The notes below the pieces were generated by a model, which was given only the letters and a program-made list of their open reading frames with translations, was not told where the DNA came from and searched no databases. Shown here piece by piece: positions 7,627-64,000 of a stretch of 64,000 nucleotides of DNA; within the stretch, counting starts at the first letter, position 1, and every line of letters begins with the position of its first letter. Source of the DNA: Ruminococcus sp. (GTDB taxonomy: Bacteria > Bacillota > Clostridia > Oscillospirales > Acutalibacteraceae); the NCBI GenBank assembly GCA_017411385.1, contig JAFQQF010000002.1, forward strand, positions 26,651 through 90,650, given 5' to 3'. The position numbers and the translations under genes were made by a program.

Positions 7627-9034
7627 CGCTGACCTCCTGGTCGTTTACGGGTGTGATTACTGCCTGTGAAAAATTAAAGCAGATGGGAACATAAGTGGCA
7701 ACCTGTTCGTCTTGTGCGCTATGCATAATCCATTTGCGTTCGTCGGATTCAAGGATAATCTCGTTGTGAGCACCCTTCCATATAACCGACTCAACAAACA
7801 CATCAGTCAGCTGACCAACACCCTCACCGTCAACATAAAGACCTTCTGGAGGAAGCTGGATATTGAGCTTGGTTCCCTTGGGATAAAAGCCATTGTGGAG
7901 CTCAAGCTCTTTGCCTTCAACAGAAATTGTTACCACGGGGGAATCCTCAGAGGAGTCTATAACCTCAGCGGTGAACTCATTGTAGGGAGTGGGGAAGAGC
8001 TTGTTCATAATGTGAATGTTGTCGGGAGATACACGCATACCGATGCGACTGCCTGCAGGGCTTGAAACCGTGGAGTGAATCAGCAGAATACAACCGCCAA
8101 CCTTAACCTCCATTTCGTAGTGAACACCCTTGAACACTACGCCGGTAACGTCACCCACAAGGGTGCCCTCCTCGGGAGCTGTAACCTCAATATCCTCGGG
8201 ACGGATAACAATATCCACGGGAGTGTTTTCGCCAAAGCCCTTGTCAACACATTTGAAGTCGCTTCCGAGTATGCGTACTCTGTAGTCTGAGAGCATTGTG
8301 CCGTCGAGGATGTTTGCTTCGCCGATGAAGTCAGCAACGAAGGCATTTGCAGGTTCGTTATAAATATCAATAGGAGTACCTATCTGTTCAATCTTACCGT
8401 TGTTCATTACCACTACGCGGTCGCTCATAGTCAGAGCTTCCTCTTGGTCGTGGGTAACATATACAAAGGTTTTCTTTGTCATTTTCTGAATTCTCTTCAG
8501 CTCAATCTGCATATCCTTGCGAAGCTTCAGGTCAAGTGCACCCAAAGGCTCGTCAAGAAGAAGCACATCAGGGTCGCACACAAGGGCACGAGCAATGGCA
8601 ACTCTTTGCTGCTGTCCGCCTGAAAGCTTTGAAACAGCTCGCTTTTCGTAGCCCTTAAGGTCTACGATTGCAAGCATCTTTGTTACCTTTGCTTTGATTT
8701 CATCCTTGGGAAGCTTTTTTAGCTTCAGTCCGAAGGCGACATTATCAAATACATTAAGGTGGGGAAACAGAGCGTACTTCTGAAAAACGGTGTTTACATT
8801 TCGTTTGTTGGGAGGAGTACCATTGATACGCTTACCCTCATAAAACACGTCACCGCTGTCAGGCTCCAAAAATCCGCCTATGATTCTGAGAGTTGTGGTT
8901 TTTCCGCAACCCGAAGGACCAAGAAGCGTTATGAACTCCTTGTCCGTAATATCCAAATCTATATTGTTAAGTATCACTTCACCGTCAAATTTTACGTTGA
9001 TATTCCTAAGTGAAACAATTTGTTTCTGTTCCAA
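7616..9034 (-). CDS. potA: polyamine ABC transporter ATP-binding protein PotA, extended C-terminus
   Basis: ATPase of the importer. Residues 1-235 hold Walker [10 protein letters not shown], the signature [15 protein letters not shown], Walker [13 protein letters not shown] and the switch His in [11 protein letters not shown]. The C-terminal part (residues 236-472) starts as a TOBE_2 regulatory domain ([12 protein letters not shown]) and continues with a second TOBE-like stretch ([18 protein letters not shown]). At 472 residues it is about 100 longer than typical PotA (~350-380). It is the first gene of the operon; no PuuR-like regulator gene precedes it, unlike some Firmicutes pot operons. 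Confidence 0.95.
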
Positions 9035-43636: not shown

Positions 43637-44815
43637 ATGAATTACAGATTAGATAAATACGGAAACAAGCTTTCTGCACTTGGCTTTGGCTGTATGCGAT
43701 TTCAGAGCAAGATGGGCAGGCTTGATTATGAAGAAGCGGAAAGAGAAATAATGGCGGCAATTGATGGAGGGGTGAATTATTTTGACACCGCGTACATTTA
43801 CCCAGGAAGTGAAGCTCTCATAGGTGAGGTTTTTGAGAAAAATAATGTGCGTGACAAAATCCATATTGCTACAAAAATGCCTCATTACCTCGTAAAAAAC
43901 AGAGAAAGCCTTGATAAGATTTTCAACGAAGAGCTTAAACGGCTGAGAACGGATTATGTAGACTATTACTTTATGCATATGCTTACAGACGTTTCCGCAT
44001 GGAATCGTATGTGCGACCTAGGAATTCTTGAGTGGATAGAGGAAAAAAAGAAAAGTGGCGCTATCCGTCAGATAGGCTTTTCTTATCACGGCAACACCGA
44101 TATGTTCTGTACTTTGGTTGATGCATACAACTGGGATTTCTGTATGATTCAGTATAACTATATGGATGAGCATTCACAGGCAGGCAAAAGAGGACTTCAA
44201 TATGCTCACAGCAATGGTTTGCCAGTTATGATAATGGAGCCTCTCCGAGGCGGCAGACTTGTAAACCGCTTGCCCGAGGAAGCCAAAAAAATCTTTGCTG
44301 ATTATGAAAAGCAGTACACTCCTGCACAGTGGGCGTTTCGCTGGCTTTATAATCAGCCCGAGGTGACAGTTGTACTTTCGGGTATGAATTCTATGGAGAT
44401 GGTAGCTGACAATATAAAAACAGCATCTGAGGCAAAGGTTGGTGAGCTTTCTTTGCACGATGAAGAAATGCTCCAAAGCGTTGTGAAGGCAATGAATGCA
44501 AAAATGAAGGTTGGCTGCACAGGCTGCGGATATTGTATGCCTTGCCCCAAAAACGTAGATATTCCCGGCGCCTTTGCTCACTACAACCGAAAGTACGCAG
44601 AAGGCTGGTTCCCTGCAATGAAGGAGCATATTATGTGTACCGCTCTGCGTAAAACACCTACGTCAATTACCAACTGCATAGGTTGCGGAAAATGCGAAAA
44701 CCATTGTCCTCAGAATATTCCTATAAGAGAAAAGCTTACAGAAGCAAAAAAAGAGCTGGAAACCCCCATATACAGAATAGCAAGGAAGGTTGCTCCGCTC
44801 TTCACGAAATTCTGA
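43637..44815 (+). CDS. aldo/keto reductase with C-terminal [4Fe-4S] domain
   Basis: 392 residues. The AKR barrel occupies residues 1-280 (LGFGCMRFQSKMGRLDYEEAE; GVNYFDTAYIYPGSE with the catalytic Asp/Tyr; DYYFMHML; IRQIGFSYHG), followed by a cysteine-rich tail with GCTGCGYCMPCPKNVDIP and CIGCGKCENHCPQNIPI, two iron-sulfur sites. This fused form is common in anaerobic Clostridia and probably exchanges electrons with ferredoxin. Substrate unknown. Start has GACAGGTGGATT before the ATG. Confidence 0.92.
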   Translation: MNYRLDKYGNKLSALGFGCMRFQSKMGRLDYEEAEREIMAAIDGGVNYFDTAYIYPGSEALIGEVFEKNNVRDKIHIATKMPHYLVKNRESLDKIFNEELKRLRTDYVDYYFMHMLTDVSAWNRMCDLGILEWIEEKKKSGAIRQIGFSYHGNTDMFCTLVDAYNWDFCMIQYNYMDEHSQAGKRGLQYAHSNGLPVMIMEPLRGGRLVNRLPEEAKKIFADYEKQYTPAQWAFRWLYNQPEVTVVLSGMNSMEMVADNIKTASEAKVGELSLHDEEMLQSVVKAMNAKMKVGCTGCGYCMPCPKNVDIPGAFAHYNRKYAEGWFPAMKEHIMCTALRKTPTSITNCIGCGKCENHCPQNIPIREKLTEAKKELETPIYRIARKVAPLFTKF

Positions 44816-44818
44816 AAA

Positions 44819-45332
44819 AACAAAAAAACCGCCCTGAGGCGGTAAAGAAAAATCTGTATAAAAGTGAAATAACCCTTGACCGTGTTTCTTTACACAACAG
44901 TCAAGGGTTATTTCTGTTCACTCTTGTTATCTAACATCGTTGTCTACCTCTCGTTTCTACAGATTTTGGATGTGACGTTGTCCTTTTCTCTCTGTTTTAC
45001 CTTTCACTTCATTTTCTTTTCGTTCTCATAAGTGAGATTTACTTGAGTGTGGTTTTCTTTGATAGGGGACATTGTCTTTCCCTAAGGTTTCTTTTGGTTT
45101 TTTTCAGAGGTTTTTGACCTCCCGATTGTTTCTTTTTTGACTTTCGTTTTTGTTTGACCTTGAAAAATTAGATTTGTAAATTTCTTTTTGGTTCTTATCT
45201 GTTTCACTTAACAGATGTTTTTGTACTATTTTATTATTGGTACTTTGTTTTTTTTGAAAGTCTTAAAAATCCAACCGTAAACCTTTAAGTTTTACCTTGG
45301 GTGCTTACCTCTTCATTGGTATCATCCTTTCT
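44819..45332 (-). ncRNA. candidate large structured non-coding RNA (~510 nt)
   Basis: No protein gene fits the 1-kb gap between the aldo/keto reductase and the lysine riboswitch. On the minus strand a TTGCAA-N17-TATATT promoter (45339-45367) is followed by A/G-rich sequence with many short hairpins: ATCTGTT/AACAGAT at ~45198-45217, GGAGGT/ACCTCT at ~45105-45122, TCTCA/TGAGA at ~45025-45037, a GTAAAAC/GTTTAC element at ~45275-45293, and a 14-bp perfect stem (44867-44880 with 44900-44913). It ends in ACCGCC/GGCGGT (44828-44843) and a run of seven U. Size, isolation and multi-stem form recall ornate large bacterial RNAs such as ROOL, but I cannot assign a family. Confidence 0.6.
44820..44843 (-). 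terminator. terminator of the candidate large RNA
   Basis: ACCGCC/GGCGGT hairpin (44828-44843) with seven U on the minus strand. It also lies 13 bases after the aldo/keto reductase stop. Confidence 0.75.
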
Positions 45333-45338
45333 GTCTAT

Positions 45339-45367
45339 AATATACCATAGGGTTCAGGTGTTTGCAA
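45339..45367 (-). promoter_or_regulatory. promoter of the candidate large RNA
   Basis: Minus-strand TTGCAA (45362-45367), 17-base spacer, TATATT (45339-45344), followed by ATAGACAGAAAGG. Confidence 0.6.
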
Positions 45368-45453
45368 GATGGAAAAATATACAAAGTTAACAGTAGTTTT
45401 TAATATAAAACGTAGAAATTGTATTGTATGCACTACAAAAATTATAAAACGCA

Positions 45454-45522
45454 TTGACATTTTGGGCGCTTTTTTGATAGAATAAAAATGTTAAGCGGTT
45501 CAAATCCGCTCTTTTCTTTTTT
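45454..45522 (+). other. promoter followed at once by a T-arm-like hairpin and U-tract
   Basis: TTGACA (45454-45459), 18-base spacer, TAGAAT (45478-45483), then AGCGGTTCAAATCCGCT (45494-45510), a hairpin identical in form to a tRNA T-arm (GGTTCAAATCC), and CTTTTCTTTTTT. The predicted transcript is only about 30-35 nt. It could be a decayed tRNA end, a decoy promoter-terminator unit or a small RNA. Confidence 0.4.
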
Positions 45523-63794: not shown

Positions 63795-63870
63795 GGGAGC
63801 ATAGCTCAGCTGGGAGAGCATCTGCCTTACAAGCAGAGGGTCACAGGTTCGAGCCCTGTTGTTCCCACCA
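63795..63870 (+). tRNA. tRNA-Val (TAC)
   Basis: 76 nt with encoded CCA. Acceptor GGGAGCA pairs with TGTTCCC (one G-T), the anticodon loop CTTACAA gives TAC, and the T-arm is CAGGTTCGAGCCCTG. Confidence 0.96.
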
Positions 63871-63873
63871 TGT

Positions 63874-63950
63874 GGCCCGGTAGTTCAGTTGGTTAGAACG
63901 CTAGCCTGTCACGCTAGAGGTCGACGGTTCGAGCCCGTTCCGGGTCGCCA
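63874..63950 (+). tRNA. tRNA-Asp (GTC)
   Basis: 77 nt with encoded CCA. Anticodon loop CTGTCAC gives GTC; acceptor GGCCCGG pairs with CCGGGTC; T-arm ACGGTTCGAGCCCGT. Three bases after tRNA-Val. Confidence 0.96.
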
Positions 63951-63958
63951 TTTTTTTT

Positions 63959-64000
63959 GCCTCTGTAGCTCAGTTGGTAGAGCAGGGGACTGAAAATCCC
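63959..64000 (+). tRNA. tRNA-Phe (GAA), 5' part
   Basis: GCCTCTGTAGCTCAGTTGG start, D-arm and anticodon loop ACTGAAAAT (GAA) are present; the window ends in the 3' strand of the anticodon stem. Confidence 0.9.

Follow-up and report, generated by a model that had tools for sequence, protein, structure and literature searches.

Does the interval at positions 44819-45367 of the window (that is, the whole stretch of 64,000 nucleotides analysed here) produce a large structured RNA from a promoter of its own, as the original prediction proposed, and if so, to which kind of RNA does the product belong and what might it do?

The locus and its main RNA

The interval holds no genes between an AKR-like gene with iron-sulphur motifs on its left (43637-44815, plus strand) and a lysine riboswitch on its right (RF00168, 45606-45773, plus strand), the latter lying ahead of an NhaC-type transporter gene; both protein genes were named by eye. 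This riboswitch belongs to the downstream NhaC-type gene and not to the structured RNA unit, given that none was found in the element loci of 19 relatives. The minus strand of the interval folds at -124 kcal/mol (z -6.8), with 0/100 shuffles equally stable, and the interior of the window copy alone gives a z of -5.3. The gene-free interval, the structured minus strand and the TTGCAA-N17-TATATT promoter had all been anticipated, and are recovered here as follows:

45339-45367, minus strand: main promoter read from the sequence, with -35 TTGCAA (45362-45367), -10 TATATT (45339-45344) and a spacer of 17
44866-45332, minus strand: main RNA of about 467 nt, from its inferred start (about 45332-45335, placed from the -10 box) to the end of the 3' hairpin
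44822-44843, minus strand: second, GC-rich terminator read from the sequence, ACCGCC-UCAG-GGCGGU followed by a U-run

Elsewhere in the window, a T-box leader (RF00230, 123.7 bits) lies at 2616-2843 on the minus strand, and 63795-64000 on the plus strand holds tRNA-Val, tRNA-Asp and one more tRNA, truncated where the window ends.

A family with conserved ends

It is near certain that the unit represents a structured RNA family, and it was found in other species, as the original prediction's call for homologous regions in related genomes had supposed. We collected 161 copies with 153 distinct 80-nt 3' cores, every one of them from a genome that either belongs to the window's class or carries a label such as Clostridia or Firmicutes. 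After removing identical copies, the working set was 162 3' modules, one of which (L146_5710) is a palindrome read backwards; 139 of the 162 had a 5' module at the first score and start cut-offs, and the 23 without it comprise 8 with less than 700 nt upstream, this one artefact, and 14 diverged copies in which a weaker 5' module does appear once the threshold is relaxed (E 3e-5 or better). These 14 were left out of the 5'-ORF, promoter, interior, arm, divergent-RNA and box counts given below, their exclusion not affecting the anti-Shine-Dalgarno count of the 3' modules. The main promoter has a spacer of 17 in 129 of the 135 copies (of 139) in which it was located.

A covariance model of the 3' module matched 20/200 genomes of the window's family, 43/297 of its order, 9/393 of its class and 1/299 of its phylum, its own genome included in each case; apart from that genome, the matches amount to 8/392 in the class and 0/298 in the phylum sample. 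By DNA search, a match was found in 15/60 genus genomes (E 0.01) and 38/300 family genomes (E 0.001), some of these matches being weak and partial, and when named GTDB genomes were scanned for a pattern, at least 115 stretches matched. Among the 80 matches listed are Oscillospiraceae, Clostridia, Clostridiales, Eubacteriales, Firmicutes, Ruminococcus, Lawsonibacter and Faecousia, many of them from animal gut. Across copies the ends are conserved and the interior is not, with a main RNA of about 230-550 nt; relatives of the window-copy interior were found in 7/161 genus genomes including its own, and in 3 of them (own included) the whole query matched at 83% or more.

The 3' module: a 9-codon ORF ending inside a covarying hairpin

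44947-44952, minus strand: Shine-Dalgarno GAGAGG of the 3' ORF, from the module alignment and the anti-Shine-Dalgarno energy
44908-44937, minus strand: 3' micro-ORF MLDNKSEQK*, 9 codons and a stop, with a synonymous excess in frame
44866-44914, minus strand: 3' hairpin of 17 bp, with the ORF stop codon inside its 5' arm, from covariation

The original prediction saw no plausible reading frame across the interval; we find two micro-ORFs with Shine-Dalgarno sequences, the longer of them conserved at the codon level. The 3' module runs from the Shine-Dalgarno through ATG-TTA-GAT-ANY-AAG-ANN-NNN-CAG-AAA-stop to a hairpin that encloses the stop. The ORF has exactly 9 codons plus stop in 155/162 modules, the seven exceptions being two of ten codons, three of eight codons, one with the stop lost and the palindrome artefact, and the 156 stops read are TGA (81), TAA (63) and TAG (12). 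In 101 sequences, the hairpin shows two-sided changes at 14 of its 17 pairs, and the middle base of the stop codon is paired in the stem as A-U in 58 and as G-C in 43, so that stop-codon changes are compensated, and therefore both the reading frame and the stem have been kept. A U-run follows the hairpin in 130/162 modules. This near-3' stem and its terminator had thus been placed correctly, with the predicted length of 14 bp giving way to the 17 bp of the family stem.

Counted over distinct codon pairs one base apart, 28 of 76 differences in the frame of the ORF are synonymous against 15.2 expected, compared with 13/87 (19.1 expected) and 11/66 (13.0 expected) in the other two frames. Variants such as MTDFKTEQR keep the residue pattern despite many base changes, and judged by these codon statistics the 9-codon frame looks translated. 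Codons 4 and 6 are most variable at their second base, an unusual pattern if the peptide is what is conserved. The original prediction had also warned of a conserved short peptide as the source of conservation: such a peptide is indeed present, but it takes up only some 30 of about 470 nt and leaves the arms of the interior unexplained.

The 5' end: a 3-codon ORF behind an extended Shine-Dalgarno

45305-45316, minus strand: 5' micro-ORF ATG AAG AGG TAA (MKR*), behind the extended Shine-Dalgarno AGAAAGGATGAT (45321-45332)

A 5' start is identifiable in 120/139 copies and in the other 19/139 there is none; where it exists, the ORF has exactly three codons in 102/120 copies (MYR, MNR, MKR, MYK and others), with a UAA stop in 99/119 and a variable last sense codon (R, K, N, T, S or I). 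Pairing energies with the anti-Shine-Dalgarno were computed against the 16S tail read from one genus and one order relative. The median is -16.0 kcal/mol at the 5' leader of the 114 copies with an AUG (of 135), that is, a strong Shine-Dalgarno near the inferred 5' end in the manner of a STAB-SD, and -14.1 kcal/mol at the 3' module (n=160); the 46 window ORFs of at least 200 codons used for comparison, some of them possibly spurious, give -9.9.

The remaining 21 of the 135 copies have no 5' AUG and a median of -7.4 kcal/mol, still better than their own shuffles (p 3e-6), and this much weaker pairing argues that a 5' ribosome is not universal. In 17 of these 21 the 5' end folds at -5 kcal/mol or lower, but 5'-end hairpins are also predicted in 74/114 copies with AUG, and thus no clear substitute for the missing AUG emerges. 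A 5'-leader hairpin enclosing the AUG, predicted in 72/114 copies, was rejected since covariation is absent.

The interior: variable in sequence, complementary to itself

45197-45216, minus strand: interior hairpin AUCUGU/ACAGAU, from the minimum-free-energy fold, with comparable hairpins in relatives by eye
45156-45194, minus strand: interior hairpin with the conserved block UUUACAAAUCUAAUUUUUC, stem base GAACC/GGUC (AGUC/GACU in the relative L236)
45107-45121, minus strand: interior hairpin GAGGU CAAAA ACCUC, from the minimum-free-energy fold
44974-45076, minus strand: long arm with outer stem GACAAUGUCC (45067-45076) / GGACAACGUC (44974-44983), from native versus swapped arms
45024-45037, minus strand: long-arm tip hairpin UCUC-ACUUAU-GAGA; window long-arm duplex -14.4

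The 133 interiors fall into 77 blastn groups, the largest of 8, and are mostly unalignable between copies. Self-complementarity is nevertheless kept in the face of this sequence variation. Native pairing between the 50 nt that immediately precede the 3' module and the interior 65-175 nt upstream reaches -23.0 kcal/mol, compared with -16.6 when partners are swapped between copies (113 copies, p 4e-28, this and the other p-values being descriptive only because the copies are related). The native pairing beats all 20 swaps in 40/113 copies and is stronger than that with the copy's own partner reversed (-16.6) in 97/113. The 5'-side arm behaves alike (-17.4 native vs -13.8 swapped, 69 copies), and a control stretch further upstream shows little difference (-17.1 vs -15.6, p 0.06, 38 copies). 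The fold z of the interior has a median of -2.9, lying below -2 in 89/133 copies and above 0 in 2/133, and 41/139 copies have a recognisable tip hairpin, its loop reading [AG]CUU[AG].

Covariation, which the original prediction had proposed as a check, is seen family-wide at the 3' hairpin and is formally thin near the window copy, where together with its five closest relatives only 1/43 RNAalifold pairs shows a two-sided change. The block UUUACAAAUCUAAUUUUUC stands in 5 of these 6 aligned sequences, the window included, as a reading by eye of a hairpin that RNAalifold does not contain. The interior structure of the window copy hence rests on the family-wide test of native against swapped arms and on this by-eye reading. 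The covarying 3' hairpin and the native arms give good support to the central proposal, namely a structured RNA that has a promoter and a terminator of its own.

The divergent promoter, the short RNA and the shared box

45454-45483, plus strand: divergent promoter TTGACA-N18-TAGAAT, from the sequence
45490-45522, plus strand: short divergent RNA GUUAAGCGG..., essentially an intrinsic terminator
45407-45420, plus strand: shared box AAAACGTAGAAATT between both promoters, from the spacing of AGA[AT] to the main +1

What had been described as a nearby T-arm-like hairpin turns out to be a terminator: it ends a short transcript that runs divergently from 45490 to about 45522 and has counterparts in most other copies. 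The divergent promoter was located in 127/135 copies, three of the others being too near the locus end and five without a match; its RNA begins GUUGGG..., meets an intrinsic terminator at once and has a median end at 28 nt. Placing sites by a fixed start-site distance of 146, terminator-like sequence was found in 82/118 copies against 31/590 control windows. The promoter pattern used in the test of complementarity between the two RNAs fixed part of the +1 letters, and letter counts there are biased accordingly.

The inferred start-site distances in these 127/135 copies cluster at 135-136 (10 copies), 139-140 (3), 145-148 (83) and 155-159 (31), classes that span 7, 2, 55 and 17 interior groups, with nothing at 141-144 or 149-154; the window copy has 158. 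The main classes, 136, 146-147 and 157-158 bp, are one helical turn apart, and given that five interior groups hold two classes each, full-turn steps have occurred more than once. Between the promoters, the box AAAACrCAGAAAT was found in 118/127 copies, 80-81 bp from the main start in 104/118. Its distance to the divergent -35 is 19 nt in 8/10 copies of the 135-136 class, 29 nt in 57/74 of the 145-148 class and 40 nt in 26/31 of the 155-159 class, with 28-29 nt in the three copies of the 139-140 class. These steps of one helical turn suggest, as far as spacing can, a protein bound at the shared box that would be required to face both promoters, and a specific DNA-binding regulator would be expected from the apparent phasing. 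As readings of the box, a CodY site and a cre site were considered and are not supported.

Antisense control by the short RNA was rejected, the native duplex with the main RNA (-24.7) being no better than the swapped one (-24.0; p=0.12, 122 copies). The divergent start CCCAACa is present in only 3/14 diverged copies, and the short RNA is therefore probably missing or changed in that subgroup. L074, L078, L103, L108, L123, L151, L152, L160, L174 and L179 have no CCCAACa in the stretch read and a main -35 of TTGACA, often together with the ORF MYR* or MYK*. This absence speaks against the short RNA being essential; the family, for its part, gains support from the diverged 5' modules and from full-turn steps having recurred, and our estimates are left unchanged.

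Neighbourhood and mobility

Neighbour genes vary between copies and are mostly unrelated, with an apparently random orientation (45/42 and 47/44), and no gene family is common to more than 8 loci. The 8 loci that share an mnmG-like neighbour (named by eye) are probably one clade. The nearest downstream ORF lies on the same strand in 44 copies and on the opposite one in 47, which is not the arrangement of a riboswitch or attenuator leader.

Adjacent copies at one locus are mostly tandem (15 in the same and 3 in opposite orientation, one of the latter an artefact). In L067, L093, L097, L170 and L175 they form arrays of 2-3 copies about 520-580 bp apart, in which the second and third positions each have their own interior group and the order is kept. 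Model searches, with reverse-strand palindrome matches set aside, gave 1-4 copies per genome, few of them alike, and a k-mer filter reduced 139 copies only to 138. The copy in G028 adjoins the same NhaC-type gene region as the window copy, and five other genus genomes (G055, G016, G025, G011 and G039) have this region with no element match beside it; in 13 genus genomes, no site was seen in which both flanks are present and the element is absent.

Two exact patterns gave 0 matches in viral contigs, phage records gave none, and plasmids gave no full match. In seven conjugative Providencia/Proteus plasmids (H1-H7), 66 nt of a hypothetical gene match the inter-promoter control region at 81% identity, and this is probably chance in AT-rich DNA.

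What the unit may do

What the sequences show directly are the two ends, the micro-ORFs, the interior arms and the phasing of the promoters. The explanation that we tentatively prefer, its mechanism being inferred throughout, is that of a structured RNA bookended by ribosomes held on micro-ORFs with strong Shine-Dalgarno sequences. From two promoters set in helical phase around one box, a single locus would express a structured RNA (about 230-550 nt) and, in the majority of copies, a divergent terminator RNA some 30 nt long. Unusually strong Shine-Dalgarno sequences would hold ribosomes at both ends of the main RNA, where the 3- and 9-codon ORFs would let them load and stop without ever entering the folded interior. 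Together with the 3' hairpin, these ribosomes would keep exonucleases (at the 5' end, RNase J) off the RNA and tether it to the translation machinery, with the folded interior acting as a regulatory RNA. Shields and tethers fit best with conserved ends, a free but folded interior, two unusually strong ribosome sites and almost immediate stops, and the shield reading has precedents in 5' ribosome-binding-site stabilisation in Bacillus (PMC3997798) and mini-ORF protection (PMC8708949). Speaking against it, the codon-level conservation of nine residues exceeds what bookending needs, a universal 5' ribosome is at odds with the AUG-less copies, and no covariation backs a 5' hairpin as its substitute.

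That same conservation makes a micropeptide gene the strongest rival, one that we rate only a little below the preferred reading: the product would be the 9-residue peptide M-L-D-x-K-x-x-Q-K and the RNA its structured leader, with the upstream 3-codon ORF controlling translation. The synonymous excess, confined to the ORF frame, and the residue pattern kept in the variants speak for it, but interiors that mostly resist alignment set the unit apart from a conserved riboswitch or attenuator, a secretion signal is not seen, and the second-base variability of codons 4 and 6 sits badly with it. In a further rival reading, both ORFs would be translation-titrating minigenes that sequester ribosomes or peptidyl-tRNA, in a dormancy or toxin-like role perhaps controlled by the short RNA, and the divergent layout resembles that of tisB/istR. 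The strong Shine-Dalgarno, the three codons and the prevailing UAA also match features of toxic minigenes recounted in PMC8708949. We regard this as improbable, however, since the last sense codon of the 5' ORF varies, the two RNAs are no more complementary natively than when swapped, and 19 copies lack a 5' start.

A slimmer chance still goes to a mobile or selfish element that is not autonomous and depends for its spread on an enzyme encoded elsewhere, a reading to which the mostly unrelated neighbours, the random-looking orientation, the patchy distribution crossing orders and the five genus genomes with an NhaC region but no adjacent element would point; the few and dissimilar copies per genome, the kept order of tandem paralogues, the G028 copy beside the same NhaC gene and the viral, phage and plasmid searches all point the other way. 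Least probable by far, and disfavoured, is a cluster of terminators and promoters with no functional RNA, whose fold would be a by-product of A-rich composition. Single interiors do have a modest z, and long-distance helices form in shuffles as well (a fraction of 0.68, vs 118/128 native), yet the covarying 3' hairpin, the native arm pairing, the codon conservation and the phased promoters are left unaccounted for.

Returning to the ribosome-bookended RNA, its fullest version would be a new Clostridia class with a hypervariable self-complementary interior, two bookending ribosome-loading micro-ORFs and usually a phased divergent RNA of about 30 nt, working as a ribosome-tethered regulator of fast-evolving targets; this we advance only as a doubtful possibility. 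If true, gut Clostridia would gain a widespread RNA class whose 3- and 9-codon ORFs are so short that annotation passes them over, and one could ask in a natural setting whether both ends of a noncoding RNA can be capped by ribosomes that sit on micro-ORFs.

Comparison with known systems

The original prediction had suggested a known class such as ROOL or else something undescribed. Among 4227 Rfam families, including ROOL, GOLLD, OLE, raiA, 6S and tmRNA, none reached its gathering cut-off on the window copy or on the copies in the loci of 19 relatives, permissive searches giving only sub-threshold matches there, and a literature search on RNA families and precedents, partly aimed at the latter, found no description of the element. 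ROOL, GOLLD and OLE (PMC12286853) and the raiA motif (PMC11706538) are stand-alone structured bacterial RNAs, and so is the element, but unlike them it has an interior unconserved in sequence, twin micro-ORFs and a phased divergent RNA. The small RNA family Gut-1 (RF01706) has two matches in L076 (7465-7543, plus strand; 7639-7718, minus strand), about 2 kb from the element copy and not on it. A human-gut catalogue holds 3161 gut RNA candidates (PMC8040213), and an unnamed one of these may be a piece of the element family.

B. subtilis transcripts, above all those that are not translated, are stabilised when their 5' end has a ribosome binding site or a hairpin (PMC3997798), and the Shine-Dalgarno of a mini-ORF is recounted as protecting an mRNA (PMC8708949); STAB-SD leaders, the hbs mRNA and mini-ORF protection are covered by works cited in PMC3997798. 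The strong Shine-Dalgarno near the 5' end is shared with these cases, as would be the ribosome shield that we propose; there the protected RNA is an ordinary mRNA, in contrast to an element with Shine-Dalgarno sequences at both ends and no large gene.

In the type I toxin-antitoxin systems, such as tisB/istR, a divergent short RNA faces a structured transcript with a small ORF, and the element has the same layout; unlike in these systems, its two RNAs have no specific complementarity, and its peptides of 3 and 9 residues are hydrophilic and not membrane toxins. The nearest broad kind is the dual-function small RNA, such as SgrS and RNAIII, in which a regulatory RNA and a small ORF share one transcript. 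The element shows structure and codon conservation and may be such an RNA, if its small ORF is translated and it also functions as an RNA; it differs from SgrS and RNAIII in having one ORF of 3 and one of 9 codons at its two extreme ends, and many sequence-diverse copies that share one conserved frame.
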